The position numbers and the translations under genes were made by a program. The notes under the pieces were generated by a model. That model did not search any database, was not told where the DNA came from, and saw only the letters and a program-made list of their open reading frames with translations. A stretch of DNA of 13,743 nt from Gemmatimonadota bacterium (GTDB lineage: Bacteria > Gemmatimonadota > Gemmatimonadetes > Longimicrobiales > UBA6960): positions 1-13,743 of the forward strand of contig JADFLD010000011.1 in assembly GCA_022564535.1 (NCBI GenBank), given 5' to 3'. Shown piece after piece: positions 1 through 13,743 of this stretch (positions are counted from its first letter, which is position 1; the number at the start of each line of letters is the position of its first letter).

Positions 1-5
1 AAAGG

Positions 6-10
6 CTCCT
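6..10 (-). promoter_or_regulatory. Ribosome-binding site of E. coli edd (gene lies just outside the window)
   Basis: On the minus strand the window ends in AGGAGCCTTT. AGGAG is a textbook Shine-Dalgarno sequence, and the following base, outside the window, should be the A of the edd (6-phosphogluconate dehydratase) start codon in the E. coli zwf-edd-eda arrangement. The assignment rests on recognising the preceding zwf end and the intergenic sequence; the edd codons themselves cannot be seen. Confidence 0.7.
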
Positions 11-65
11 GAAATTGAGTTGTCAGAGCAGGATGATTCACAACGCGTTTCATTCAGAGGATTTA

Positions 66-115
66 TGACTGAAACGCCTGTAACCGGAGCTCATAGGGCA
101 AAAACGTTTCAGTCA
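66..115. repeat. 11-bp perfect inverted repeat in the edd leader
   Basis: TGACTGAAACG at 66-76 and its exact reverse complement at 105-115 flank a 28-base spacer. Read on the minus strand this lies between the zwf terminator and the edd ribosome-binding site, in the region expected to hold the edd promoter and leader. It could form a leader hairpin or be a two-arm operator. The TGAAACG/CGTTTCA arms resemble the TGAAAC half-sites of KdgR-type operators, but this is a resemblance only. A GGTTACAG stretch inside the spacer (minus strand) looks like half of a GntR site. Confidence 0.5.
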
Positions 116-122
116 GTGTAAT

Positions 123-155
123 AAAAAAAGCCTCGTGGGTGAATCCGCACGAGGC
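123..155 (-). terminator. Intrinsic terminator downstream of zwf
   Basis: On the minus strand GCCTCGTG (155-148) pairs perfectly with CACGAGGC (137-130) across a 10-base loop and is followed at once by seven T residues (129-123). This is a classic rho-independent terminator about 80 bases after the zwf stop codon. Transcription of the following edd gene would therefore need its own start downstream of this point, or read-through. Confidence 0.9.
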
Positions 156-194
156 CTGAAAGTGTAAAAATTGTTCTACAATCTGCGCAAGATC

Positions 195-210
195 ATGTTA
201 CCGGTAAAAT
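195..210. promoter_or_regulatory. GntR-type operator
   Basis: ATGTTACCGGTAAAAT contains the perfect 10-base palindrome TTACCGGTAA (198-207) and matches the known E. coli GntR operator pattern ATGTTACC-N2-TAACAT at most positions. GntR represses gluconate-use genes including edd, so a site between zwf and edd fits. A weak sigma70-like pair lies just downstream on the minus strand: TTGCGC at 190-185 and TACACT at 166-161, spaced by 18 bases. It precedes the terminator, so its use for edd is uncertain. Confidence 0.65.
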
Positions 211-234
211 AACCATAAAGGATAAGCGCAGATA

Positions 235-396
235 TTACTCAAACTCATTCCAGGAACGACCATCACGGGTAATCATCGCCACCGAGGCAACGGGTCCCCA
301 GGTTCCGGCCTGATACGGTTTCGGCGCATCATTGTCCATCGCCCACGCCTCAGTAATGGAGTCTACCCATTTCCAGGCTTCTTCCACTTCGTCGCG
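235..396 (-). CDS. zwf: 3' end of E. coli glucose-6-phosphate dehydrogenase (foreign fragment)
   Basis: The last 53 codons before the TAA at 237-235 read as the C-terminus of E. coli Zwf, starting at [13 protein letters not shown] and ending in [12 protein letters not shown]. Zwf is the cytoplasmic NADP-dependent enzyme that opens the pentose phosphate and Entner-Doudoroff routes (glucose 6-phosphate to 6-phosphogluconolactone). Only the tail is present; the catalytic and NADP-binding parts are missing. The fragment is fused in frame to an unrelated BNR-repeat protein, which is best explained as an assembly or cloning chimera. The match is recalled from knowledge of the E. coli protein and was not searched; the downstream terminator, GntR palindrome and edd ribosome-binding site support it independently. 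The exact left edge is uncertain by a few codons. Confidence 0.9.
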
Positions 397-402
397 ATCC
401 TC
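388..402. other. Probable chimeric junction between E. coli and a GC-rich environmental genome
   Basis: On the minus strand the reading changes from an acidic, GC-rich BNR-protein segment (SLIDADED) to E. coli Zwf (RDEVEEAW) here without a frame break. The hexamer TCGCGA (392-397) lies at the switch and may be shared by both parents, so the breakpoint cannot be placed more finely. Base composition also changes: the left side carries A/T runs typical of an enterobacterial intergenic region, while the right side is uniformly GC-rich. Confidence 0.85.
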
Positions 403-3114
403 GTCGGCGTCGATGAGCGAGTCGACGACCACTTCGAGGCGACGCTCGATCGCGATGCTGTCGCGCACCTCGGACGGAGACCGCTCGAGTCGAATGAGCT
501 GGCCGCGCAGGTTCCACGTCGCGGTGTGCATTCCGACCGTGGTCGCGCCGCGGGTGGACCACATCTCGTTGCCCTCGGCGTCCTCGACGACGATCTCCGT
601 GGAATCGTCGACTTCCTCTCCGAGCCAATACCTGAACTCGGCGCCATACGGCGGGCTCGGTACTTGGAAGTAGTGCTGGGCCGTGAACTCGCCTCCCGTC
701 GGCGAGGTGCCGAACTGATACGCCGGCGCCGGCTCGAAGAGGTGCGCGGCCGAAGCGACCACGTCGGGCGTGTACTGCTGGAGCGGCTTGATGTCGACGA
801 TCCAGATGGAGCGACCGTGCGTCCCCGCGATGAGCTCTCCGTCACGCGGGTGGATCTGCAGGTCGTGTACGGGCACCGTGGGGAAGCCGGTCATGAAGCG
901 CTGCCAAGACGCCCCACGGTCGAGCGTCACGTACAACCCGACGTCCGTCCCGACGAAGAGCAGGTTCGGGTTGACGCCGTCCTCACGGACCACGTGCGCG
1001 AAGTCGGGCTTGCCGGTCGGCAGATTGCTGGCGATCGAACGAAAGCTGTCGCCGCCGTCGTCACTGACCAGCACGTAGGGCGTGAAGTCACCGCGGCGAT
1101 GGTTGTCATAGGTCACGTAGACGCGATCGGCGGAGTGCTTCGACGGCTCGATCCGGCTCACATAAGTCCCGTCCGGAACGAGGCCCGACGTATGAGACGT
1201 GAGTTCCTCCCACTCGCCACCGTCGTCGGACGACACCCACAGATTCCCGTCGTCCGTGCCCGCGTAGAGCAACCCCGCTTGGAGCGGCGACTCGGCCAAC
1301 GAGACGATCGTCGCGAACGTCTCGGCACCCGTCACGTCCGGCGTGATCCCGCCCGTCGTCGTCGTGCTGATCTCGATCGCCTCCGCGTCGGCTCGCGTGA
1401 GGTCGGGTGAGATGACATACAGATCGTCACCCCGCCAATCCGACTTCATGACGCGGTTCGCGGCCGCGTACACGACGTCCGGATTGTGAGGGGACAGGAA
1501 GTAGGGCGTGTTCCAGTTGTAGCGGAGCTGCTGGCTCGTGGAATCGGCCGTCGCCCTGGCCTGGAGCTCCGCGATGCGAACGGTGTGCTCGCTCGGCATT
1601 GGAAGGGTACTGTCGGGCCAGAGCATCGCGATGGAGTCCTGAGTCACCCGATACGAGTCCCGCCAATTCGGCCGCTCGAACGCGGTCCGCTCACCTGTCG
1701 CGTAGTTCGAGCGCCCCATGTTGCCGCCCTGCGACTCGGAGTAGATGATGTTCGGGTCACGCGGATCCTGCTGCGATACGAAGCCGTCCCCTCCGCTGAT
1801 GCGGAACCAGTCGTGGCTCGTGATGCCGCCGCTCGACTTCCGGCTCGGCCCGCACCACGTGTAGTTGTCCTGCAACCCGCCACATACCCGGTACGGCGTA
1901 TCCATGTCGTAGCTAATGGCGTAGAACTGGCCGATGGGGAAGATGTTCGGGAAAAGGAAATTCCCGCCGCGGTCGTAGCTGATGGCGATTCCGCCATCGT
2001 TTCCGAGCACGATGCGCTCGGAGTCGTTCGGGTCGATCCAGATCGCGTGGAAGTCGACGTGGACGCCCTGCGCCATGTTGCGCATCGTCTTTCCCCCATC
2101 CTCGGAAAAGCGCAGAGAGGAGAAGTAGACGCGGTCCGGGTCGGAAGGGTCGACGGCGACCTCCGAGTAGTAGAACGGGCGAGAGTTGTAGCTGTTCATC
2201 CGCTCCCACGTTTCCCCACTGTCGTCGGACCGGTAGAGGCCGTTCAGGTTGTCCTCGTCCGAGTCCTCCGGGGCGGCGGCCTCGACCATCAGGTACATGA
2301 CCCGTGGATAGCTGGGTGCGAAGGCGACGTTCATCTTGCCGAGCTCGGTCTCCGGAAGCCCGCCGCCCTCCACCTTCTCCCAGTTGTCCCCACCATCGGT
2401 ACTCTTCCAGAGCGCACTGCCGGGGCCACCGCTCTGCAGGTAGTACGGCCCACGCTCACGCTCCCAGCTCGTCGCGAAGAGGATGTCGGGATTTCGCGGG
2501 TGGATCTTCACGTCGAGGAATCCGGCCCGGTCGCTCACGAAGTTCACCAGCGTCCACGTGTCACCACCGTCGACGGTCTTGTACAGCCCGCGCTCAGGAT
2601 TCGATCGCCACAGGGCACCCAAAGCCGCGACCCAGACGATATCGGGGTTCGTCGGATGCACGGCGATCCTTCCGATGTGCTCGGTCGCCTCCAGCCCCTT
2701 GAGCTCCCACGTCATTCCGCCATCCATGGATTTGTAGATGCCGCCACCGGGCGAAATGGAGTTTCTGGAGTCCTCTTCGCCGGTTCCGGCCCATATCTGG
2801 TTGGGGTCGCTCGGCGCGATCGCGATGTCGCCCATCGACACGACGCGTTCGCTCTCGAAGATCGGGCGGAACGTGGTGCCGTTGTTGGTCGTCTTCCAGA
2901 TTCCGCCGGCCGCTGCAGCTACGTAGAACGTCTTCGAGGGGCTCGGCACTCCTTCGACGTCGGTCACGCGGCCCGACATGTTGGCCGGTCCGATCGGACG
3001 CCAGCGAAGGTCCTCGAGCCACTCCTCGCTAAGCGTGACCACGTCCTGGCCTTCGAGGGGTGCGGCCATGAAGAATGCGAAGGCTAGACCGCCCAGCGAG
3101 ATGCGTCGCAGCAT
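397..3114 (-). CDS. Secreted BNR/Asp-box beta-propeller protein (sortilin/Vps10-like 'glycosyl hydrolase'), 3' truncated
   Basis: The 906 native residues belong to the large secreted YVTN/BNR-repeat family often labelled glycosyl hydrolase, although catalysis is unproven. The start is the ATG at 3114, with GGAGAAGGA just upstream; the frame stays open further upstream but without propeller-like sequence. Residues 1-23 are a signal peptide (MLRR, hydrophobic core, probable cut near EGQ). Asp-box motifs of the S-x-D-x-G-x-T-W type recur: SMDGGMTW 129-136, TVDGGDTW 180-187, STDGGDNW 238-245, RSDDSGETW 295-303, SEDGGKT 337-343, SDDGGEW 629-635, VSDDGGDSF 683-691 and TLDRGASW 730-737. The propeller closes with the family hallmark [10 protein letters not shown] (763-772), followed by a FlgD/Ig-like segment (about 835-870). 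Relatives commonly run past 1,000 residues, so the C-terminal end is probably lost at the join. The gene follows the operon after a 98-base gap. Confidence 0.85.
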
Positions 3115-3212
3115 GATGGATCCTTCTCCGTGGTTTCGTGCGATAATCGACGGAGATAGTCGAACCGAGACCGCAAACGCGCCAGGGGACCTTCGGGCAC
3201 AGCGGCCGACGT
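3115..3212 (-). promoter_or_regulatory. 98-base leader between the operon and the BNR gene
   Basis: This is the only real gap among the minus-strand genes from 10902 to 397. It holds the BNR gene's ribosome-binding site (GGAGAAGGA ending near 3119) and a small hairpin, TCGAC 3147-3151 pairing with GTCGA 3159-3163 over a 7-base loop. No convincing sigma70 pair and no T-tract terminator is visible, so whether the BNR gene has its own promoter or is the last operon gene cannot be decided. Confidence 0.3.
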
Positions 3213-4214
3213 CTACCCCTCTGAAAACGCCTCGTCGAACGCGGTTCCCGAAGTCGGGAAGTCGAGGTCGCGGACGAACGAGCACGCCTCTGCGGCACCG
3301 TGCTCGCGGTCCATGCCGGAGTCCTCCCACTCGACCGAAAGCGGCCCCTCGTAGCCCACGCGGTTCAGGGCGCGAATCACGTCCTCGAAGGGAACGTACC
3401 CCCGCCCCAACGATCGGAAGTCCCAGTATCGATCCTCGTGACCGAACGGAAGGTGGCCGCCGAACACACCCGACGGCATCGGCCGGTCCGACCACCACAC
3501 GTCCTTCATGTGCACGTGATAGATGTGCGCCCCGAACCGCGTGATGAACTCCACGCAGTCGACACCCTGATACGCGAGGTGACTCGGATCGTAGTTGAAG
3601 CCGAACGCCGCTCGATGCTCGAGAGCGTCGAGCGCCCGCTCCGCGGTCACGCTATCGAACGCGATCTCTGTGGGATGAACCTCCAAGGCGAAGCGGACGC
3701 CGACCTCGTCGAAGACATCCAGAATCGGGTTCCAGCGTGCGGCGAAGTCGGAGTAGCCCGCCGCAAGCGTCTCCTCGGAGACGGGGGGGAACGCGTAGAG
3801 AAGGTGCCAGATGGAGCTTCCCGTGAAGCCGTTGACGACCGACACGCCGAAATTGGCCGCGGCCCGCGCGGTCTGCTTCATCTCCTCGGCGGCGCGTTCA
3901 CGCACACCCTGTGGGTCTCCGTCCCCCCAGACGCGAGCGGGCAGGATGGACTCGTGGCGCTCGTCGATGTTGTCGCACACGGCCTGACCCACGAGGTGAT
4001 TGCTGATCGCATACACGTCGAGCCCATGGGAGCCGAGCAACTCACGGTGAGCCACGCAATAGTCCGGGTCCTCCGCCGCGCGCTCGACGTCGAAATGATC
4101 GCCCCAGCACGCCAGCTCGAGACCGTCGTAGCCCCAGGCCGCTGCTTTTTCGGCGAGGAGGGTCAGGGGGAGGTCGGCCCACTGGCCGGTGAAGAGTGTG
4201 ACGGGTCGGCTCAT
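3213..4214 (-). CDS. Cytoplasmic sugar phosphate isomerase/epimerase-like TIM barrel (AP_endonuc_2 family)
   Basis: This 333-residue protein has the AP_endonuc_2 xylose-isomerase-like barrel fold. The expected divalent-metal ligands sit at the ends of the C-terminal strands: E178 (FALEVHPTE), D209/H212 ([11 protein letters not shown]), H235 (YHVHMKD) and E295 (SVEWED). There is no signal peptide, so it should act in the cytoplasm, unlike the related protein encoded at 7824-8657. Family members isomerise or epimerise sugars; some (DgpB/CarB-type and 3-keto-hydratases) act on 3-keto sugars. That second role fits the neighbours but is inference. The ATG at 4214 lies 6 bases after the preceding gene's stop and has only a weak ribosome-binding site, suggesting coupled translation. 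It is the last tightly packed gene of the operon. The substrate cannot be read from sequence. Confidence 0.87.
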
Positions 4215-4220
4215 GAGCGA

Positions 4221-5375
4221 TCAGCCTGGAGGTGAATACGCGGCGTCGATCCAGCGCCCTGCCGCATGGCTATCGACCGCGTGGTGAATGAAGTGCACGC
4301 CATGAGCCCCGTCCTGCACGGTCGGGAAGTCCGCTCGAGGCCCCCTCGCCTCGTCTCCGGCGCTCCGCACAGCCGATGCGACGTTCCGATACACGTTGGC
4401 AAACGCCTCTATAAAACCTTCTGGATGGCCACTCGGGAGTCGCGTGTGTGACCGGGCGGCCTCGGAACGCGTGCCCGCCCCGGGGTACAGGATCCGCTCG
4501 GAGCCATCCACGGCGACGAGCCTCAGCCGGTTCGGATTCTCCTGTGACCAGTCCAGAGCGCCCTCGCTTCCGTAGACACGCAACCGCAGGTGGTTACGCT
4601 CGCCGGTCGCGATCTGTGAGGCGAAGAGTAGCCCGCGCACCCCACCGTCGAGGTCGAGCAGGACGGTGGCGTCGTCCTCCATTCGGCGTCCGTCGACGAC
4701 CGTTCCGAGATCCGCGAAGAGTCGCCGTATTCCGAGCCCCGTGACGTAACGGACGATGTCGTACGCGTGCGACCCGATGTCCGCGAGCGCCGAAGATATT
4801 CCTGCCCGCTCGGGATCGCCGCGCCACTCTGCCTGCTTCTGGCCCTCCGCCTCGAGAAGCGTCGAGAGCCAGCCTTGCGAGTACTCGACCACGACCTTGC
4901 GCAGCGTGCCCAGATCGCCGGTCCGTACGCGGTCACGGGCCTCCTTCACCATCGGGTAGCCGGTGTAGTTGTACGTCACGGCGAAGATGAGATCGCGCTC
5001 CTTCGCGATCCGGCAAAGCTCCTCGGCGTCCTCTATCGTCGTCGCCAGAGGCTTGTCGCACACCACGTGGATGCCCCGCTCGAGAAACGTCTTGGCGACC
5101 GGGTGATGCAAGTGGTTGGGCGTGACGATCGTCACGATCTCGATGCGCTCCTTCGCGGGCCGCGCCGCCTCTTCCGCCGCCATCGCCTCGTACGAGCCGT
5201 AGATGCGGGCCGCATCGAGGCCGAGCGCACGCCCCGTCTCCCTCGACTTTTCCGGATCCGCCGAAAAGGCGCCCGCGACGAGCTCGTACTCTCCGTCCAG
5301 CGCAGCCGCCATGCGGTGGACGGGCCCTATGAAGGCACCGGGTCCGCCGCCGACCATCCCAAAGCGAATCCTCAT
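4221..5375 (-). CDS. Cytoplasmic Gfo/Idh/MocA-family NAD(P)-dependent sugar oxidoreductase
   Basis: This 384-residue protein shows the Gfo/Idh/MocA plan: an N-terminal Rossmann fold with GGGPGAFIG (9-17), TPNHLHH (85-91) after the fourth strand, the catalytic-lysine motif CDKPLA (106-111, K108), and the C-terminal sheet domain with DIGSHAYD (199-206, catalytic-type His203). It has no export signal. The start is set at the ATG at 5375 because it overlaps the upstream stop as ATGA (5372-5375) and because the Rossmann strand begins at once ([11 protein letters not shown]); the frame is open upstream but codes for nothing recognisable. The family oxidises or reduces sugar and cyclitol hydroxyls, including at C3. 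With the GMC pair and the isomerases around it, a 3-keto-sugar reductase is a plausible role, but the direction and substrate are not visible. Confidence 0.9.
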
Positions 5376-6046
5376 TCGCTGCCAATGTGGCGAAGTACTT
5401 CGGCGGGTGGGGGATCCCAGCGCGGAAGCGGCACGTTGCCGACGTAGCGAAGGTCCTGCATTCCGACGTTCGTCGTCCAAAACGCGGTCGACGTCAGATC
5501 CCGGACCTTGTCGAAGAACCCGGCGGCCGCCTCGTAGCCCTCTGCGGCGTGGGGCAGAAAGCAGATGTCGTCACAGATCGAGCGGTGCTGCTCGGCCGTG
5601 AGGTCGCGGAAACGCCGTCCGTCACCGAACCGCCGGGCCGCCTCACGATCCATCCACGCGAGTCCACCGCGCACCACGACCAAGTCGCGTTCGTTCCCTT
5701 CGTACGGCGCGCTCACCCATTCGTCGATGAAGTCGTGCGCGCCGACCTGGCTCGCCGAGAGGGACCGATCGTCGGCCGGGATGATCACGTCGCAAAGCAC
5801 CGCGAGCGACTCTAGCTCGTCCACCGTGAGCTTCCGCTCCCAGGGGATCGACGGAGCGACGAGATCGGGATCCCACGCGGTCCCGGCAGCCTTGGGATTG
5901 CTCATGGGGAGCGGGGCCGTTGCAACGTCCCCGGTTCCCTCATCCGGCCCGCACGTCGACAGCGTCGGCGCCGCGGCCACGATCGCCATGACCTTGAGCG
6001 CCTGCCTCCTGTCCATAGGCAGGAAGCCGCCGGCCTCGTCGCTCAT
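5372..6046 (-). CDS. Gluconate 2-dehydrogenase subunit 3-like small subunit with Tat/lipoprotein signal
   Basis: This 224-residue protein matches the small (gamma) subunit family of membrane-bound FAD sugar dehydrogenases. The diagnostic segment is LAVLCDVIIPADD...GAHDFIDEW (81-110). The N-terminus has a twin-arginine motif, DRRQALK (12-18), a hydrophobic stretch, and Cys32 in LSTC, a slightly imperfect lipobox (T at -1). It should therefore be exported folded and perhaps lipid-anchored. In characterised homologues this subunit carries the catalytic GMC subunit, which has no signal of its own, through the Tat system. The gene order here fits: its ATG (6046) overlaps the GMC stop as ATGA, and a GAGGAG ribosome-binding site lies at the correct distance. 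It overlaps the next gene by ATGA as well. The usual third subunit, a multihaem cytochrome c, is not in the window. Confidence 0.9.
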   Translation of the reverse strand: MSDEAGGFLPMDRRQALKVMAIVAAAPTLSTCGPDEGTGDVATAPLPMSNPKAAGTAWDPDLVAPSIPWERKLTVDELESLAVLCDVIIPADDRSLSASQVGAHDFIDEWVSAPYEGNERDLVVVRGGLAWMDREAARRFGDGRRFRDLTAEQHRSICDDICFLPHAAEGYEAAAGFFDKVRDLTSTAFWTTNVGMQDLRYVGNVPLPRWDPPPAEVLRHIGSE

Positions 6047-7827
6047 CCGATGCTCCTCGATGTGAGTTGCTCTACGATGTGGTCGGAGGCCCTCCACGCG
6101 ATCGCCATGATCGAGAGCGTCGGGTTCTTGTCCGCGTTCGACACGAAACAACCGCCGTCGGTCACGAAGAGGTTGTCGACCTCCCACGACTGGCAGAACT
6201 GGTTCAGCACGGACCGGGACGGGTCGTCACCCATGATCACACCACCCACCTCGTGGATGATCTGACCCGGTCGTGCGATCGCGTCGGCGCCGTCGGCCTG
6301 AACTGTGCTCAGAACCCGTCCGCCCATCTCGTCGATGATCCCGGCGAAGGTGTGCTGCATGTGGCGCGCCTGGTTCAGCTCGTGCTCCGACCACTTCCAG
6401 TGGAAGCGTAGCGTGGGTATGCCCCACTGATCGACCTCGTCCGGATTGACCTCGCAAAAGGAGTCCTCGTTCGGGATCATCTCTCCCCGTCCGTCGAAGC
6501 CGAGGAACGAGCCGTAGTACCGGCGGCAGTCGTCCTTGAACTGCTGCCCGTAGGAGCCTTCGGTCAGCGGTTCGATGCCGCTGAACGCCCCGAAGCCAGG
6601 CATCCTTCGCCCTCCGCCGAATTCGACGTGATATCCACGAGCGAAGTCGAGACGGCCACGAGCCTGCTCCTGGTACAACCACCACGGCGTGTACAGGTGC
6701 ATCGCCGAGGCGCCGTCCGCGTTGTGGGGCGGCATGTTCTCGAGCATCGGGATCTGTCCGTAGACGCCGGCGCCGACCGTGTCCATGACATACTTGCCTA
6801 CGAGCCCACTCCCGTTGCCGACCCCGTCCGGAAAGAGATTGCTCTTCGAGTTCAGCAATATACGCGCTGACTCGAGGGCGCTCGCGGCCACCACCACGAC
6901 CCGCGCGCTGACGTGTTCGTCCAGTCGCGTGCGCTTGTCGATGTAGTGCACCCCTGTGGCGCGCCCAGAAGAGTCGATGGTGACCTCTCGGACCATGGCG
7001 TCTGTGAGGATGTCGAGGTTGCCCGTCGCGACAGCAGGTGGCAACAGCACCGTGGGCGACTGGAAATTCGCTTTGATCGAGCAGCCACGACCGCATGGCG
7101 TGGCGAAGAAGCAGGCGGCCCGCGACCGCATCGAAGTCGCCGTCACCTGCTGCGCTCGCGGATTGTTCGGCCACAGCACCCGCGCGAGCCGGTCGGCGTC
7201 CTGCCGCTGCGTCATGATCGCCAGGTGCGCAGGAATGACAGGGATGTCCAGCCCGCGGCAGACCTTCTGGGTCAGAAGCTCCTCAGCCCGTGCTGCGGGT
7301 GGTGGTTGAAGCACGCCGGCTGAGGAGCTCGGCGTGTTCTCCAGCCCCTCGTTCGAGCCGTACACGCCGATGAGCATCTCGGTCTTGTCGTAATACGGCT
7401 CGACGTCCTCGTACGACATCGGCCAGTCGAAGCCGAGCCCGTCGCGGGAATAGGGCATGTAGTCGTACGGCCCCATGCGCAGCGAGATACGCCCCCAATG
7501 ATTCGTCCGCCCACCGAGCATGCGTGCACGCCACCACCTGAATTCGGTGCCCTCGGCACTCGAGTAAGGCTCGCCGGGCACCTGCCACCCGCCGTCCACC
7601 GTGGCGTCGTAGAACCCAAATGGCTTCTCACGCGTGCCCGCGCCCCTCAAGGGCGCGTCCTTGGGAAGCTGGAACATCGGCGTCTCGGTCACGGGGTCGT
7701 AGTCGCGACCCGCCTCAAGCATGAGCACGCGCACGCCGGAACACGCGAGCACATACGCGCACATGCCACCCGCAGCCCCGGACCCTACGACGATGACGTC
7801 GTATTCCTGCTGGGCCTTCCGCCTCAT
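6043..7827 (-). CDS. GMC-family FAD-dependent sugar dehydrogenase, large catalytic subunit
   Basis: This 594-residue flavoprotein has the GMC hallmarks in order: FAD-binding GSGAAGG (15-21) with E38 in LEAGRDYD, the FAD-contact motif GGRTNHWG (105-112), and the C-terminal catalytic pair H525 (HEVGG) and N568 (NADKNPT) in the GMC_oxred_C region. It resembles the 2-keto-gluconate/glucoside-3-dehydrogenase branch rather than choline dehydrogenase. There is no signal peptide; export probably depends on the small subunit encoded immediately after it. Three cysteines at 239, 245 and 249 (CFFATPCGRGC) sit where related FAD-glucose dehydrogenases hold a 3Fe-4S cluster. The ATG at 7827 overlaps the preceding stop as ATGA (7824-7827). 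The likely reaction is oxidation of a sugar hydroxyl, possibly C3, passing electrons to a respiratory acceptor; the substrate is inferred only. Confidence 0.93.
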   Translation of the reverse strand: MRRKAQQEYDVIVVGSGAAGGMCAYVLACSGVRVLMLEAGRDYDPVTETPMFQLPKDAPLRGAGTREKPFGFYDATVDGGWQVPGEPYSSAEGTEFRWWRARMLGGRTNHWGRISLRMGPYDYMPYSRDGLGFDWPMSYEDVEPYYDKTEMLIGVYGSNEGLENTPSSSAGVLQPPPAARAEELLTQKVCRGLDIPVIPAHLAIMTQRQDADRLARVLWPNNPRAQQVTATSMRSRAACFFATPCGRGCSIKANFQSPTVLLPPAVATGNLDILTDAMVREVTIDSSGRATGVHYIDKRTRLDEHVSARVVVVAASALESARILLNSKSNLFPDGVGNGSGLVGKYVMDTVGAGVYGQIPMLENMPPHNADGASAMHLYTPWWLYQEQARGRLDFARGYHVEFGGGRRMPGFGAFSGIEPLTEGSYGQQFKDDCRRYYGSFLGFDGRGEMIPNEDSFCEVNPDEVDQWGIPTLRFHWKWSEHELNQARHMQHTFAGIIDEMGGRVLSTVQADGADAIARPGQIIHEVGGVIMGDDPSRSVLNQFCQSWEVDNLFVTDGGCFVSNADKNPTLSIMAIAWRASDHIVEQLTSRSIG

Positions 7828-8657
7828 GGTCTCTCCGAGATCGACTTCAGATGGCGAAGGCTGCGCCGGATGCTGTCGATGGCGTCGGACGGCTGATCGT
7901 GTTCGACGAAGGCGTGCCTCAGACCCTGGCGCTCCGCCAAAGCGATGAGCGGTGCGAAGTCGATGACTCCGTCACCGACGTCGACCATGGCACCCGCGGC
8001 GGTCCGATCCTTGAGGTGGATGCTCGAAATCCGCCCTGCGGCTCGCTCCATGTACGCCGCCGGGTCCGCTCCTCCGTCGACCGTCCAGAAGATGTCCATC
8101 TGCCAGTCGACGACGTCGGCGTCGGTACGCTCCAGCAGGAAATCCATCGGAATAGTTCCATCGGGAAGGGGCTCGAACTCCCAACTGTGGTTGTGATACC
8201 CGAAGCGCAGCCCGGCCTCGACCGCCGCGTGCCCCGCGCGCGTGAAGTCGTCGGCGATCCGCCTCAGTCCCTCGGAGCTTCGTTCGCTCCCCGGAATCCC
8301 CGGCACGACAATCAGGCTCTGGCCAAGCTCCTGCGCACTCTCCAGCGCCCGGCCCCAGGACTCCCGAACCTCATTGACGCCGTGGTGACTCGAAGCCGCG
8401 CGCAGCCCGAGGCCGTCGAGTATCGCGCGCATCTCCCGGGGCGTCCTCCCGTACAGTCCGGCGAACTCGACCTCGCGGTATCCGATCTCTGCCACCAACG
8501 CGAGCGTGCGATCCAAATCCGCAGCCAGCTCCTCACGCAGTGTATACAGTTGGACACCGTATACGTCGACCGAACGAGGAGTCAGACTCGCCGAAAGCGC
8601 CTCCTTCGACGCGATGGCAGCCGCCGGTGCAGCGGCGAGGAACGTGCGCCGGTTCAT
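7824..8657 (-). CDS. Tat-exported sugar isomerase/epimerase-like TIM barrel (AP_endonuc_2 family)
   Basis: This 277-residue protein begins with NRRTFLAAAPAAA, a twin-arginine export signal (RR at 3-4) ending near residue 23, followed by a xylose-isomerase-like barrel. Family motifs are GVQLYTLR (34-41), EVEFAGLYG (62-70), YHNHSWEFE (154-162), D188 (QMDIFW), H214 (IHLKD) and E252 (FVEHD), giving the usual metal-ligand set. The start at 8657 is fixed by the ATGA overlap with the DUF1080 stop (8654-8657) and by the signal peptide. Folded, metal-loaded export explains the use of Tat. Close relatives sit beside DUF1080 and Gfo/Idh/MocA genes, and one characterised group hydrates or isomerises 3-keto-glucal-type intermediates. 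That role is an inference here. The protein differs clearly from the cytoplasmic barrel at 3213-4214. Confidence 0.88.
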   Translation of the reverse strand: MNRRTFLAAAPAAAIASKEALSASLTPRSVDVYGVQLYTLREELAADLDRTLALVAEIGYREVEFAGLYGRTPREMRAILDGLGLRAASSHHGVNEVRESWGRALESAQELGQSLIVVPGIPGSERSSEGLRRIADDFTRAGHAAVEAGLRFGYHNHSWEFEPLPDGTIPMDFLLERTDADVVDWQMDIFWTVDGGADPAAYMERAAGRISSIHLKDRTAAGAMVDVGDGVIDFAPLIALAERQGLRHAFVEHDQPSDAIDSIRRSLRHLKSISERP

Positions 8658-9400
8658 CGTCCGATCTCGCGAATCTTGATGTTCCGATACCACACGACGT
8701 CGCCGTGATCCTGTAGCCCGATGTGCCCACGGACGGCCCGTCCATACTCCGGCCACGCGGCAAACTTGCTGTCGGCCACCAGCCCTTCCCACTCCGGACT
8801 ACCGAAGTCGTACTCGACCACTCGAGTGCCATTGAGCCAGTGCTCGACGTGTGTGCCCTCGACCACGACGCGGGATCGGTTCCACGCACCGGCCGCGTGA
8901 ACCACGCCGCGAGGCACTGCGTGCAGACCATAGGTCGACCCCGCGCTCGTGAACGGGCTCTGTCCGTCCAGATGGCCCGCGTCGTCGAGAATCTGCATCT
9001 CGGGGGCGCTATGGTAGATCCGCTCCTCCCCTTTGGCGGCACGGTAGAAGACTCCGCTGTTGCCGGCCTCGCCGACCCGCCACTCCAGGGTCAGCTCGAA
9101 GTCCGTGAACTCGCGGTCGGTGATGATGTCGCCACCACTGCCCACGCGAACCAGCAGGCCGTCCTGCGCCGCCCATCCTTCGGGGGTCTCATCGCGGTCG
9201 TAAAACCGCCAGCCGTCGAGTGAGTGGCCGTCGAAGAGCAACGCCCAGCCGGCTGCACGCTCGGCGTCGGTGAGCACGTTCAGTGCGGTGTCCGAAGTCA
9301 CCGACCGAGCTTCATCCGTCTGCTCCTGGGCACCCGCGCACCCGACCAGCACGAGGAGGGCCATCAAGCCTGAGCACACCCGACGCGTCGCACGCCCCAT
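8654..9400 (-). CDS. DUF1080 (3-keto-disaccharide hydrolase-like) lipoprotein
   Basis: This 248-residue protein has a single DUF1080 (PF06439) concanavalin-like domain: LFDGHSLDGW (55-64), GGDIITDREFTDFEL (89-103), NSGVFYR (114-120), PEMQILDD (133-140), GHIGLQDHG (225-233) and WYRNIKI (237-243). The N-terminus is a lipoprotein signal, with basic residues, a hydrophobic core and lipobox LVGC at Cys21, so it should be membrane-anchored outside the cytoplasm. DUF1080 proteins include enzymes that cleave 3-keto-glycosides by elimination or hydrolysis; many remain uncharacterised. The start at 9400 is preferred because the signal peptide begins well there. An in-frame ATG at 9424 would overlap the upstream gene by 13 bases and add eight residues. 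Neither has a strong ribosome-binding site. The stop overlaps the next start as ATGA. Confidence 0.9.
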   Translation of the reverse strand: MGRATRRVCSGLMALLVLVGCAGAQEQTDEARSVTSDTALNVLTDAERAAGWALLFDGHSLDGWRFYDRDETPEGWAAQDGLLVRVGSGGDIITDREFTDFELTLEWRVGEAGNSGVFYRAAKGEERIYHSAPEMQILDDAGHLDGQSPFTSAGSTYGLHAVPRGVVHAAGAWNRSRVVVEGTHVEHWLNGTRVVEYDFGSPEWEGLVADSKFAAWPEYGRAVRGHIGLQDHGDVVWYRNIKIREIGR

Positions 9401-9411
9401 GGACGCGCCGA

Positions 9412-10902
9412 TCAAAGCGACCATCCGGTTCGGTACTCTCGGGTCAGCGACCGGTTGGCCTCTTCGGAATTCGTGACGCGCATGTTCGCCGCGTCGTATT
9501 CGATCTTGAAGCCCTGGCCGGCCCGCAGCGCGACGAGACCGAGCAGCATGACCTCGGTGAGGGGCGCCGAGTACGAAAACGGGCTCGTCGCCTCGCCGAT
9601 TCCTCTGCAGGCGTTCGCCCAGTTCATTTCGTGACTGTCCTCGATACGGGCGTAGGTCTGCGACACCGTCGCGGCCTCCTCGTGGAGCTCCTCGGGGAAG
9701 AGCCGAGGATTCTCTCCGTACGTTTCGTGCAAGAGCAGGCCGCGCTCGCCGACGAAGATCACCCCACCCCCTCGCTCGAGCTCGACGTGCGCCGGCAAGC
9801 CGTCCGGACGCTTCGGCATGAGTCCGCCGTCGTACCAGTGCAGTGTCACGGGCGGCATCAGTCCGCGTCGCGGGAACTCGTAGTGGACCGTCATCGCCAT
9901 CGGATACGAGACAGGGTCGTCGGACGGGCCACCCCACGGCGTCGACGTGGTCTCCACCGACGTCGGATAGCCGAGATCGAGCGCCCAGAACGGGTGGTCC
10001 ATGAGATGCGCGCCCATGTCCCCCAGCGCGCCCACGCCGAAGTCTACCCAACCGCGCCAGTGGAAGGGGTGGTAGATCGGATGGTACTTCACCTCGCGGG
10101 CGCACGGGCCCAAGTAGAGATCCCAGTCAAACTCCTCGGGCACCGGGAAGTCGGCCCAAAGGCCCGATGCCTGTGCTTCGGAAACCGACCCTGGCCACCA
10201 CGACCGATCCGGGGACATCGGGTCGAAGTCGTCACCCATCGGAGCCGGTCGAAGGAGCCCCTGCGCCCAGATCGGCCGGTTGGTCCAGACGTGGACCTCA
10301 CGGACATTGCCGATCACTCCGGCCTGCACCCACTCGTTGATGAGTCGCGCCTCGTCCGACGAGTGCCCCTGATTTCCCATCTGCGTCACGACGCCCGTGC
10401 TCTTTGCGAGCGCCTGGAGCGCGCGGGCTTCATGCACCGAGTAGGTCAGAGGCTTCTGCACGTAGACGTGCTTGCCGGCCCTCATCGCGGCAGCCGCGAT
10501 CACTGCGTGCGTGTGGTCCGGCGTCGCGATCACGACCGCGTCGATGTCCGACTGCCGGTCCAGCATGTCCTCGAAGTGAGTGTACTTCGCGGCCCGTTCG
10601 TATTGCTCGGCCCAGCGCACGCCCTCCTCCCGGGGATTCCCGTCCCCGTCGGTCATGCGCTCCCGGACCTTGTCGAGGACGAGCGCATGATCCAGGTCAC
10701 AGACGGCCACGATGTTCTCCGAACCGAGGTGCTGCGCGTTCTCGGCGCCCATCCCTCCGGCCCCGACGATCGCCACGTTGAGCGTGTCGCTCGGCGCCCT
10801 GTAGCCGCGCCCTCCGACCACATGGCGAGGTACGATCATGCCCCCGAGGGCGAGCTTCGATGACGTCGAGACGAAGTCCCGGCGCGAAAGGTCGTCAGAC
10901 AC
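9412..10902 (-). CDS. Tat-exported Gfo/Idh/MocA-family oxidoreductase
   Basis: This 496-residue protein is the first operon gene. It starts at a GTG (10902) with AGGA eight bases upstream. The N-terminus carries the twin-arginine signal [16 protein letters not shown] (6-21). A Rossmann domain follows with GAGGMG (47-52), ATPDHTH (126-132) and VQKPLT (148-153, catalytic-type K150 with Q replacing the usual E), then the long C-terminal domain of the secreted subfamily with GNQGHS (176-181) and [15 protein letters not shown] (294-308; H299 and D302 in the active-site region). The extra length over the ~350-residue family norm is typical of the secreted group. Exported members must carry a tightly bound NAD(P), as glucose-fructose oxidoreductase does, so a cofactor-recycling oxidoreduction is likely. 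A role on 3-keto sugars is inferred from neighbours. Confidence 0.91.
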
Positions 10903-11018
10903 GGCGCTTGTCCTGATGGAAGTAACGATCGGGACAAACTAGGGCCGCGAGCCGGTTTCGCTACGCGACCCGACGATGAAGACGGAGATCGGAGTTTGGC
11001 CCAGCCCAAAAGCCGGGC
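10903..11018 (-). promoter_or_regulatory. Operon leader: probable promoter region with TTGTCC/GGACAA inverted repeat
   Basis: This 116-base gap precedes the seven-gene operon, so it should hold its promoter. TTGTCC (10908-10913) and its reverse complement GGACAA (10932-10937) are separated by 18 bases; the proximal arm covers the GTG gene's AGGA ribosome-binding site. A possible but poor -10 (TAGTTT) is visible on the minus strand near 10942-10937. Near the upstream gene's stop, AGCCC 11003-11007 can pair with GGGCT 11015-11019, a weak hairpin without a T tract. No confident promoter can be assigned. Confidence 0.35.
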
Positions 11019-12122
11019 TCAGCTCCCTTCGGCCTCCTCCACGAGGCGTCCTATCCGGGGCCGAAGCTTGATCGGGAGACGCCGCAGATGAGCCTCGAGC
11101 ATCCGCCTGGGCGTGAGCTCTTGATCGATGATCCGCGCGATCTCCTCTTCCCGCTTCCAGATGAACTCGAGCGCGCGCACTTCGAGGTCCAGCATCCGCT
11201 TCTCGACCGATTCATTCAGGGCGATCTCGAGCCCGATCGTGCCCGTCGCACCCATCTTCCACAACGACTCGCGGTTCTTCGTCACACCCAGGGCGAATTC
11301 ACCCGCGGACCCCGAGGCCTCGATCGCCTTCGCGGCATCGGCGATCCTCCGCTCGCTGGCCCCACCGATGTTCTGATAAGCCAGAAGGCGGCGGAGCACG
11401 TTCTCGGCGACGTCGCCATGCAGCTCATAGACCTTGTCGGGCGTCCAAGGGTCGCACCGCTGACAGGGAATGCCGACGCCGAGGCGCCCGTCCTCTCCCT
11501 CGAGGGGGTAGACCCACCAGCCCAGGTCGTACCGCAAGGCACGAAGCGTGCTCTGGCAGTTCGGACACGTCTCGCGACCGTGCCAGGCGGCCCAGCCGAA
11601 CCGGCGCCAGCGCAATATATCCGCCACCGGGGTGTCCTTCCAGTCGATCACGAAGTCCCCATCGAAGAATCCGACCATCTCTCCGACGTACTGCATGGCG
11701 CCGAACGTGTACGCCGTCACCTTGGAGCGTTTGCTTTCGAACGAGGTTTTCCGCTTTCTCAGTTCTCTTCCGTACCGCCACCACGCCTGCTCCACGAGGC
11801 TGGCGTCGCCGACGCGCACGAGGGTAAGCGGGCCCACATGTATGAGCGCGATATTGGCGGTATGCCCCATCGGGCGTCCGTGGTCCCGGGCCAGCCGCTC
11901 GAGCTCGTAGAGCGCGCCCTCACGCTCCTCGATGGGGGCCAGGTTCCAGCGGTGGCAACCCTCGCACACCGCCCAGAGTCGACCGTTGCTCGGGTCGTAG
12001 GCGATCCTGCGCCCTCGTGACATGTGCACGAGCTGGCCGTTCTCCGGAAACGGCTTGTGGCAGAATAGGCAGCGTGTGAACATCAGGCTCCGCCGCGTCG
12101 CTAGCGTCTTCTTCATCGTCAT
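11019..12122 (-). CDS. Unrecognised protein with two pairs of CxxC knuckles (zinc-ribbon-like)
   Basis: I do not recognise this 367-residue family. Four CxxC knuckles form two similarly spaced pairs: C18/C21 (CLFC) with C53/C56 (CEGC), 31 residues apart, and C186/C189 (CPNC) with C220/C223 (CQRC), 30 residues apart. Each pair could fold as a zinc ribbon. Between them is a basic stretch (ELRKRKTSFESKRSK, 120-134); after residue 230 the protein is mostly charged helix-forming sequence rich in Arg and Glu. There is no signal peptide or membrane segment, so it is probably cytoplasmic and may bind nucleic acid or scaffold a complex, which is inference. The start is uncertain among ATGs at 12137, 12122 and 12116; 12122 is chosen for GGGGA four bases upstream. 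CEGCH resembles a haem c CxxCH motif, but a signal peptide is lacking. The gene is divergent from the SDR gene. Confidence 0.75.
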   Translation of the reverse strand: MTMKKTLATRRSLMFTRCLFCHKPFPENGQLVHMSRGRRIAYDPSNGRLWAVCEGCHRWNLAPIEEREGALYELERLARDHGRPMGHTANIALIHVGPLTLVRVGDASLVEQAWWRYGRELRKRKTSFESKRSKVTAYTFGAMQYVGEMVGFFDGDFVIDWKDTPVADILRWRRFGWAAWHGRETCPNCQSTLRALRYDLGWWVYPLEGEDGRLGVGIPCQRCDPWTPDKVYELHGDVAENVLRRLLAYQNIGGASERRIADAAKAIEASGSAGEFALGVTKNRESLWKMGATGTIGLEIALNESVEKRMLDLEVRALEFIWKREEEIARIIDQELTPRRMLEAHLRRLPIKLRPRIGRLVEEAEGS

Positions 12123-12256
12123 CACTTCCCCGTCCATCACCCGCCGCGACCACGAGTGGCCACGCCACGCTTGGAAGGCGACCGCACTTCCAAGGTAATG
12201 AATACGAGAGGAGCGGCGACAGGTTGCCGGGCTGCAGGAGGCCGAGGAGCAAATCG
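12123..12256. promoter_or_regulatory. Divergent intergenic region with a perfect operator-like palindrome
   Basis: This 134-base region separates two divergent genes. CTTGGAAG (12170-12177) and its exact reverse complement CTTCCAAG (12187-12194) flank a 9-base spacer, the shape of a dimeric repressor or activator site. A weak plus-strand promoter may overlap it, with TTGGAA (12171-12176) as -35 and GGTAAT (12194-12199) as -10 at 17 bases, or TAATGA (12196-12201) at 19 bases. A GTGGCCAC palindrome lies at 12156-12163. No regulator gene is adjacent. Confidence 0.5.
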
Positions 12257-13003
12257 ATGAGCGAAATGAAGGGAAAGGTCGCGTTGGTAACGGGCGGCAG
12301 CCGAGGAATCGGAGCGGCCATCGCACGGTCGTTCGCTCGAGCCGGCGCGCGGGTCGTGATCACGCACCGGGACAGCGCCGGGCAAGCGGAGACCACGCGT
12401 TCCTCTCTCTCCGGGAAAGGGCATCGTGTGATTCAGGCGTCCGCCGTGGACTCGGCCGCCCTCGACGCCGCGGCCTCCTCCGTGGCGGAGGTCGAAGGGC
12501 GGCTCGACGTTCTCGTGAACAACGCCGCGATGACTCGGGTCATCCCCCACGCCGACCTCGATGAGCTCGACGATGAACTCTTCGACATGGTGTTTCGCAC
12601 GAACGTGCGCGGGGCGTTTGCCACGGTGCGCTCGTTCCGAACGCTCCTGCAGGCTGGTGACGGAGGCGTCATCGTGAACATCTCGTCACTCGCCGCACAG
12701 ATGGCGAACGGGAGCAACGTGGCTTACTGCGCCTCGAAGGCCGCCCTGGACAACATGACGATGTCTCTCGCCCGTGCGCTCGCCCCGGAGGTGCGCGTTC
12801 TCTCGGTCGCGCCAGGACTCGTGGACACGCAGTTCACGAAGGGGTGGAGCCCGGAAGCGCGCCGGCAGACGGCCGACGATACGCCTCTGGGACGAATCGC
12901 CACTCCGGAAGACATCGCCAACGCCGTACTCGCCGCGGTGACCCATCTCACCTTCGTGACCGGCGTCGTGATTCCGGTCGATGGGGGGCGCCCGCTCGGC
13001 TGA
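12257..13003 (+). CDS. Classical short-chain dehydrogenase/reductase (SDR, FabG-like)
   Basis: This 248-residue cytoplasmic NAD(P)-dependent oxidoreductase has the full classical SDR set: the cofactor motif TGGSRGIG (12-19), NNAA (88-91), N116 (RTNVRGAF), the catalytic Ser in NISS (141-144), Y157 and K161 (YCASK), and APG (185-187). An Arg after the Rossmann glycines and HRD (37-39) after strand two leave NADP use possible. The start at 12257 is supported by GAGGAG at 12244-12249, seven bases upstream; an earlier in-frame ATG at 12224 has no such site. It is the only complete plus-strand gene. Transcribed alone from the divergent region, it converges on the RidA gene nine bases after its stop. 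SDRs of this type act on ketoacyl, sugar or steroid-like substrates; the actual one is unknown. Confidence 0.93.
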   Translation: MSEMKGKVALVTGGSRGIGAAIARSFARAGARVVITHRDSAGQAETTRSSLSGKGHRVIQASAVDSAALDAAASSVAEVEGRLDVLVNNAAMTRVIPHADLDELDDELFDMVFRTNVRGAFATVRSFRTLLQAGDGGVIVNISSLAAQMANGSNVAYCASKAALDNMTMSLARALAPEVRVLSVAPGLVDTQFTKGWSPEARRQTADDTPLGRIATPEDIANAVLAAVTHLTFVTGVVIPVDGGRPLG

Positions 13004-13012
13004 AGCGGCCTC

Positions 13013-13513
13013 CTATCCCCCCTCCGGCACCGCGGCGATGCACTCGATCTCGACGAGCGCGCCCAACGCGAGGCCACTCGCCGCCAGCGCCGACCGCGCG
13101 GGCGGATCGGAAGGGAAGTACTCGACGTATACGGCGTTCATCGCCGCGTAGTCGTCGATGTCGGATAGGAACACGGTACACTTGATCACGTCTTCGAGCG
13201 TCGCGTCCGCGGCGGCGAGTACGGAGATGATGTTCTCCATGGTTTGGCGCGTCTCGGCTTCGATTCCGCCTTCTATGAGCTGCGGCGGCATCACTCCGGG
13301 AAGGGCTCCGAGGGCACCCGAAAGAAAGATGAAGTCACCGCTGCGCACGGCGGACGAAAAGACCGGCAAGCGAGCCACACCCTCCGGCTGGATGATCTGT
13401 CGGCGCGTGGACACGACCTCGACCGATCCGCGGTCCGTCCGCTCCTCGAAGGTGCACGTGCCGAAGGCAGAAATGGCAAGGACTGCCATCAGGAATCCCG
13501 CTGTGTATCGCAT
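13013..13513 (-). CDS. RidA/YjgF/UK114-family protein with N-terminal export signal
   Basis: This 166-residue protein ends in a complete RidA domain (about 45-165). The substrate-carboxylate arginine R140 lies in PPARSALA, and E155 in LVEIECIAAV corresponds to the water-activating acid of active RidA enzymes. RidA hydrolyses reactive imine/enamine intermediates made by PLP enzymes, normally in the cytoplasm. Here about 40 extra N-terminal residues begin with a hydrophobic signal (AGFLMAVLAISAFG, 5-18) and Cys20, which hints at a lipoprotein although the lipobox is poor. Export therefore seems likely, and the role may differ from textbook RidA. The start at 13513 is chosen over a GTG at 13528 because GAGAG lies about nine bases upstream. 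It converges with the SDR gene and diverges from the gene starting at 13694. Confidence 0.87.
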   Translation of the reverse strand: MRYTAGFLMAVLAISAFGTCTFEERTDRGSVEVVSTRRQIIQPEGVARLPVFSSAVRSGDFIFLSGALGALPGVMPPQLIEGGIEAETRQTMENIISVLAAADATLEDVIKCTVFLSDIDDYAAMNAVYVEYFPSDPPARSALAASGLALGALVEIECIAAVPEGG

Positions 13514-13693
13514 ATTATACGCTCTCACTCTTGCTCATCGTCGAACTGGAAGGTGTGCCACCCCGGCGCGCTACGCCATCCCACAACTGTGGCGCAAGGG
13601 GATGTGGCCGAACCCATGCGACCCTATTGTTGCGCCCTTCCTGCCGCGACCAACGCTCGGCCACCGGCGGACCAGCGGGAACGGAGTCATCCC
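13514..13693. promoter_or_regulatory. 180-base divergent intergenic region
   Basis: The region lies between the RidA-like gene (minus) and a Tat-signal gene (plus) and should hold both promoters. A perfect TATAAT on the minus strand (13519-13514) abuts the RidA ATG, too close to serve that start. A short near-palindrome CCACAACTGTGG lies at 13581-13592. No clear -35/-10 pair was found on the plus strand. Confidence 0.3.
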
Positions 13694-13743
13694 ATGAACC
13701 GCAGACATTTCACGCGAGTGACCGGCCTCGGCTTCACCGGACT
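13694..13743 (+). CDS. 5' end of a Tat-exported protein (cut by the window edge)
   Basis: An ATG at 13694, preceded by ACGGAG seven bases upstream, opens a frame that stays open to the window end. The 16 complete codons encode a twin-arginine start (MNRRHFTRVTGLGFTG; RR at 3-4, then a small hydrophobic stretch). Tat signals of the NRRxF type in this neighbourhood precede sugar isomerases, Gfo/Idh/MocA oxidoreductases and amidohydrolases, but the mature protein is outside the window, so no function can be assigned. Confidence 0.7.
   Translation, partial: MNRRHFTRVTGLGFTG

Follow-up and report, generated by a model that had tools for sequence, protein, structure and literature searches.

An in-frame junction of Escherichia coli zwf-edd DNA with a Gemmatimonadota contig end, probably created during assembly

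The stretch of DNA analysed here (13,743 nucleotides, referred to as the window) is composed of parts that match two different organisms, bases 1-397 matching E. coli and bases 398-13743 matching relatives within the Gemmatimonadota. The window is probably the end of a contig of an uncultured Gemmatimonadota that was falsely joined to an E. coli zwf-edd fragment during assembly, and it is almost certain that the junction is an artefact, whether it arose in the assembly or at the bench. The fusion is thus an ordinary artefact rather than a real biological feature, and its biological interest is low. The original prediction had considered the contig to be a chimera for which an artefact was likelier than natural transfer, and this reading is supported by the identity of the intergenic DNA, by an unfused twin of the fused protein, by the absence of the piece from related genomes and by a peptide shared at the join. 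The analysis adds to that prediction the exact boundary, the in-frame nature of the fusion, the unfused twin and the seven-residue stretch which explains where the join lies and why it is in frame (Table 1).

The foreign origin of the first bases is evident from the comparison of bases 1-400 with E. coli, by which the original prediction proposed to check its reading. Bases 1-397 are identical to E. coli K-12 MG1655 at 397 of 397 positions and base 398 is the first mismatch, which moves the predicted boundary of about 396 bases to 397. The MG1655 annotation places the piece between edd and zwf, in the predicted gene order, with window base 235 as the final base of zwf, and the perfect identity extends over the non-coding DNA between the two genes. 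The zwf of MG1655 runs on to its full 491 codons, whereas that of the window stops after base 397, leaving a Zwf tail of 53 residues, exactly as predicted, in which PF02781 (Pfam) is found as part of the fused open reading frame. Among complete E. coli genomes, 5375 out of 5426 match the piece (3507 at >=99% and 1868 at 95-99% identity), and a single place covering at least 80% of it was found in 5372 of them. Among the matches listed, 100% identity occurs alike in isolates from laboratory, human, animal, plant and water sources, and hence the piece does not discriminate between E. coli lineages, or between reagents, a laboratory strain and the sample as its source. A plasmid search returned five E. 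coli records matching the piece, three of which are of chromosome size, so there is no sign of a mobile carrier. The remainder of the window, which was predicted to be GC-rich and not of E. coli origin, is indeed so: GC content is 0.45 in bases 1-300 and 0.61-0.69 in every 300-base segment starting at or beyond 301, and neither 398-8000 nor 8001-13743 matched an E. coli genome at megablast sensitivity.

Two of the regulatory signals anticipated within the E. coli piece, the terminator and the palindrome, are also present. The minus strand of the predicted T-tract terminator has a folding energy of -18.9 kcal/mol, compared with a mean of -6.05 for its shuffles (z -6.30); none of 200 shuffles equalled it, and a U run follows the stem. 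A consensus scan of bases 1-450, the rule of which admits loops of up to 8 bases, listed no terminators and no promoters. The GntR-type palindrome lies one mismatch away from ATGTTA-N4-TAACAT, which we take to be the GntR consensus, with a chance expectation of 0.01. With regard to the outer limits of the window, base 1 corresponds to the base immediately 5' of the edd start codon in MG1655, an exact start that may reflect chance, a second break or trimming, while the opposite end falls within an open frame.

Table 1. Features of the window, with coordinates, strand and basis of assignment
Feature	Coordinates	Strand	Basis
zwf 3' end (235-397) and zwf-edd intergenic region (1-234)	1..397	-	MG1655 identity and annotation
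zwf terminator hairpin	118..166	-	fold energy against shuffles
GntR-like palindrome, one mismatch	195..210	+	comparison with GntR consensus
Chimeric ORF: VPS10/BNR-repeat protein running in frame into 53 Zwf residues	235..3498	-	ORF list, Pfam, P0001 alignment
Join: codes RDEVEEA plus one base, fits both parents	376..397	-	MG1655, P0001 and Zwf comparisons
VPS10/sortilin-like BNR-repeat gene, 3' side cut by the join	398..3114	-	P0001, 911/913 residues; ~77% DNA identity to L002, L003
Two xylose-isomerase-like proteins, Gfo/Idh/MocA oxidoreductase, ORF 5372-6187, GMC oxidoreductase	3213..8792	-	Pfam (all but ORF 5372-6187); order in L096
3-keto-disaccharide hydrolase and second Gfo/Idh/MocA oxidoreductase	8654..10902	-	Pfam
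Protein of unknown function (-), short-chain dehydrogenase (+), RidA-like protein (-)	11019..13528	mixed	relatives' loci; NCBIfam

The join falls in a gene of the VPS10/sortilin BNR-repeat family (PF15902, Pfam) and produces an open reading frame of 1087 residues, which opens upstream of the probable VPS10 start; the true start is probably base 3114, corresponding to ORF residue 129. The unjoined native sequence exists at the protein level. P0001, a protein of 1042 residues encoded on a 21,973-base ENA contig, is identical at 911 of 913 residues to ORF residues 129-1041, an alignment that ends in RDEVEEA. Past this peptide P0001 carries a native C-terminus of 129 residues, whereas the window protein carries the Zwf residues. 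Judged from this identity, P0001 would come from the species to which the native part of the window belongs, or from a very close one. The native tail is the rule in the family: among the best 120 of 7949 homologues, drawn from a candidate set limited to 8000, it was found in 118 and the Zwf tail in none. P0103 and P0108, in which neither tail was matched, are both named partial. Likewise, no Zwf-tailed protein was found among proteins of 0.55-1.75 times the ORF length, in a search that required shared five-residue words and omitted proteins of Zwf size. Besides MG1655, one of the 96 collected loci contains a Zwf relative, an ordinary Zwf of Marinoscillum (L045) at 38% identity, and there is none in the four VPS10 loci compared.

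The place of the join is explained by a likeness between the two parents. Zwf reads RDEVEEA and then WKWVDS at this point, and bases 376-397 fit either parent at the protein level. The parents' flanking sequence differs on both sides, and therefore an exact overlap can be at most 22 bases long. Compared over their whole lengths, Zwf (491 residues) and P0001 have RDEVEEA as their longest shared peptide. When Zwf was shuffled 1000 times, the longest peptide shared with P0001 had seven residues in 2 shuffles, six in 14, five in 282, four in 695 and three in 7. Within the best 120 of 7949 homologues, RDEVEEA itself is present in five, and a seven-residue word shared with Zwf occurs in four of the 119 other than P0001. 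The join thus sits at the peak of likeness between Zwf and P0001, as expected from an error driven by overlap, and an overlap of at most 22 bases probably guided it, as far as the sequences tell. Both genes use one and the same reading frame across this stretch, and for this reason the frame of the fusion is open.

How far the agreement extends at the DNA level is read from protein only, with seven common residues and the 22-base ceiling, since the closest genome is 77% identical. The native DNA across the join was not found in 154 genomes of the same order, where the best match reached that identity, and viral_contigs gave no match to the junction or the adjoining stretch. In the native gene GAA makes up 14% of glutamate codons, which gives a match of all seven codons a prior of 1.8e-4, and L002, the nearest relative with RDEVEEA, uses different codons there. 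This prior is not decisive, as the join is visible only because some match existed in a large data set.

An assembly error would account for these features as follows. Both genes may share ~20-22 identical bases at the join, and a de Bruijn graph of small k (~21) could have let the contig cross from one genome to the other. The first k in common assemblers is about 21, and the ceiling of 22 bases means that the join fits a small first k and not a k well above 22. Such errors have been described in the literature. Genomes that share k-mers become linked in the de Bruijn graph, where a wrong path yields a chimeric contig (PMC7299287); chimeric nodes have been described (PMC8171044), the merging of similar regions in metagenome assembly leads to chimeras (PMC8862208), and chimeric contamination has been reviewed (PMC10978663). 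As in the chimeric metagenome contigs of these four sources, two organisms share one contig, one end is foreign and the join lies at a seemingly common stretch. There is no difference in kind; what is particular here is a shared stretch that codes for protein in one frame in both genes, which leaves the fusion open. Hence the window illustrates cleanly how a chimera can escape an open-frame check, the shared stretch being in frame in both genes. For data quality this matters, as the fused frame could be mistaken for a novel combination of domains or for a transfer from E. coli. The open frame does not imply a functional fusion protein; a working VPS10-Zwf fusion was considered and rejected, given that the shared peptide accounts for the open frame and that neither the 120 homologues nor the search among proteins of similar length yielded such a protein.

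The main rival to an assembly error is that the molecules were joined before sequencing, by template switching in PCR or whole-genome amplification, by ligation or by cloning, with E. coli DNA contributed by reagents, a host strain or the sample itself. This is the less likely of the two routes, though one that deserves some weight. Template switching can join molecules at short stretches of similarity, and so a join at such a place suits it too; among the matches listed, laboratory strains of K-12 show full identity to the piece; and codon usage, which makes a complete 22-base match improbable a priori, favours a shorter overlap, in which case the bench route would be the better fit. A short overlap alone, however, predicts no agreement over seven residues at the join, a length reached anywhere in the protein by so few of the shuffles.

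A very recent natural transfer, by which zwf-edd DNA of E. coli would have entered the chromosome of a Gemmatimonadota and left a VPS10-like protein that ends in a Zwf tail, is scarcely credible. It is rejected because the identity is perfect even outside the coding sequence, because an unfused twin exists and because none of 154 genomes of the order contains the piece beyond 30 bases. What speaks for it is the open frame across the join, which the shared peptide already explains. Perfect identity through the intergenic DNA would leave no time for divergence after transfer, and the unfused twin occurs in that very species or one very close to it. A version in which recombination at ~20 shared bases produced the Zwf-tailed protein in one strain only is to be given hardly any credence. 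A non-Escherichia genome with the same arrangement, named in the original prediction as evidence that would overturn it, did not appear among the 154 genomes of the order, where the E. coli piece gave only 22- and 30-base matches in two genomes and nothing beyond 30 bases, nor did the Zwf tail among the best 120 of 7949 homologues. By comparison, the DNA of the native gene was matched in 98 of the 154. Moreover, no mobile-element family was found in the proteins scanned (10 window proteins with Pfam; P0001 and six window proteins with NCBIfam).

Bases 398-13743 read, by their sequence, as one natural Gemmatimonadota locus, of which 8654-10902 has no counterpart in four relatives' loci. For the gene at the join 68 loci were found in named genomes, and the three highest identities belong to Gemmatimonadota MAGs, with 81% for L002, 82% for L003 and, along a part of the protein, 87% for L008. 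In the DNA alignment to L003, window bases 397-3017 and 11058-13408 align at 71-77% identity except for a gap at 12121-12271. A gene-by-gene comparison with the loci L002, L095, L096 and L097 matched nine of 11 window queries in at least one locus. L096 carries, in window order, an isomerase-like protein, the GMC oxidoreductase, ORF 5372-6187, a Gfo/Idh/MocA oxidoreductase, an isomerase-like protein and VPS10, and L097 carries VPS10 together with the 11019-12326 gene, the dehydrogenase and the RidA-like gene. L002 has VPS10, the 11019-12326 gene and the dehydrogenase and lacks the RidA-like gene; L095 has VPS10, the dehydrogenase and the RidA-like gene and lacks the 11019-12326 gene. The 3-keto-disaccharide hydrolase and the second Gfo/Idh/MocA oxidoreductase gave no match in these four loci. 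Because L096, which holds the neighbouring genes, begins just there, continuity across 8654-10902 is read from composition only. Further joins within the window were considered and no sign of one was found, as GC content stays even beyond base 300, the remainder has no E. coli match by megablast and nine of the 11 queries find counterparts in the four loci.

Some features of the native locus may be recorded in their own right. A sugar-oxidation and 3-keto-sugar cluster at 3213-10902, which comprises two Gfo/Idh/MocA oxidoreductases, a GMC oxidoreductase, two isomerase-like proteins and a 3-keto-disaccharide hydrolase, separates VPS10 from the genes at 11-13 kb, and these adjoin VPS10 more closely in L002 and L003. 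The protein of unknown function encoded at 11019-12326 (minus strand) is retained next to VPS10 in both L002 and L097, with 73-77% identity; it has no NCBIfam match, and its Pfam zinc-finger match is below threshold. The VPS10/BNR-repeat family is numerous in the genomes of L002 and L003 (G001 and G002), which contain 22 and 31 stretches matching P0001, respectively, these being counts of stretches and not of genes.
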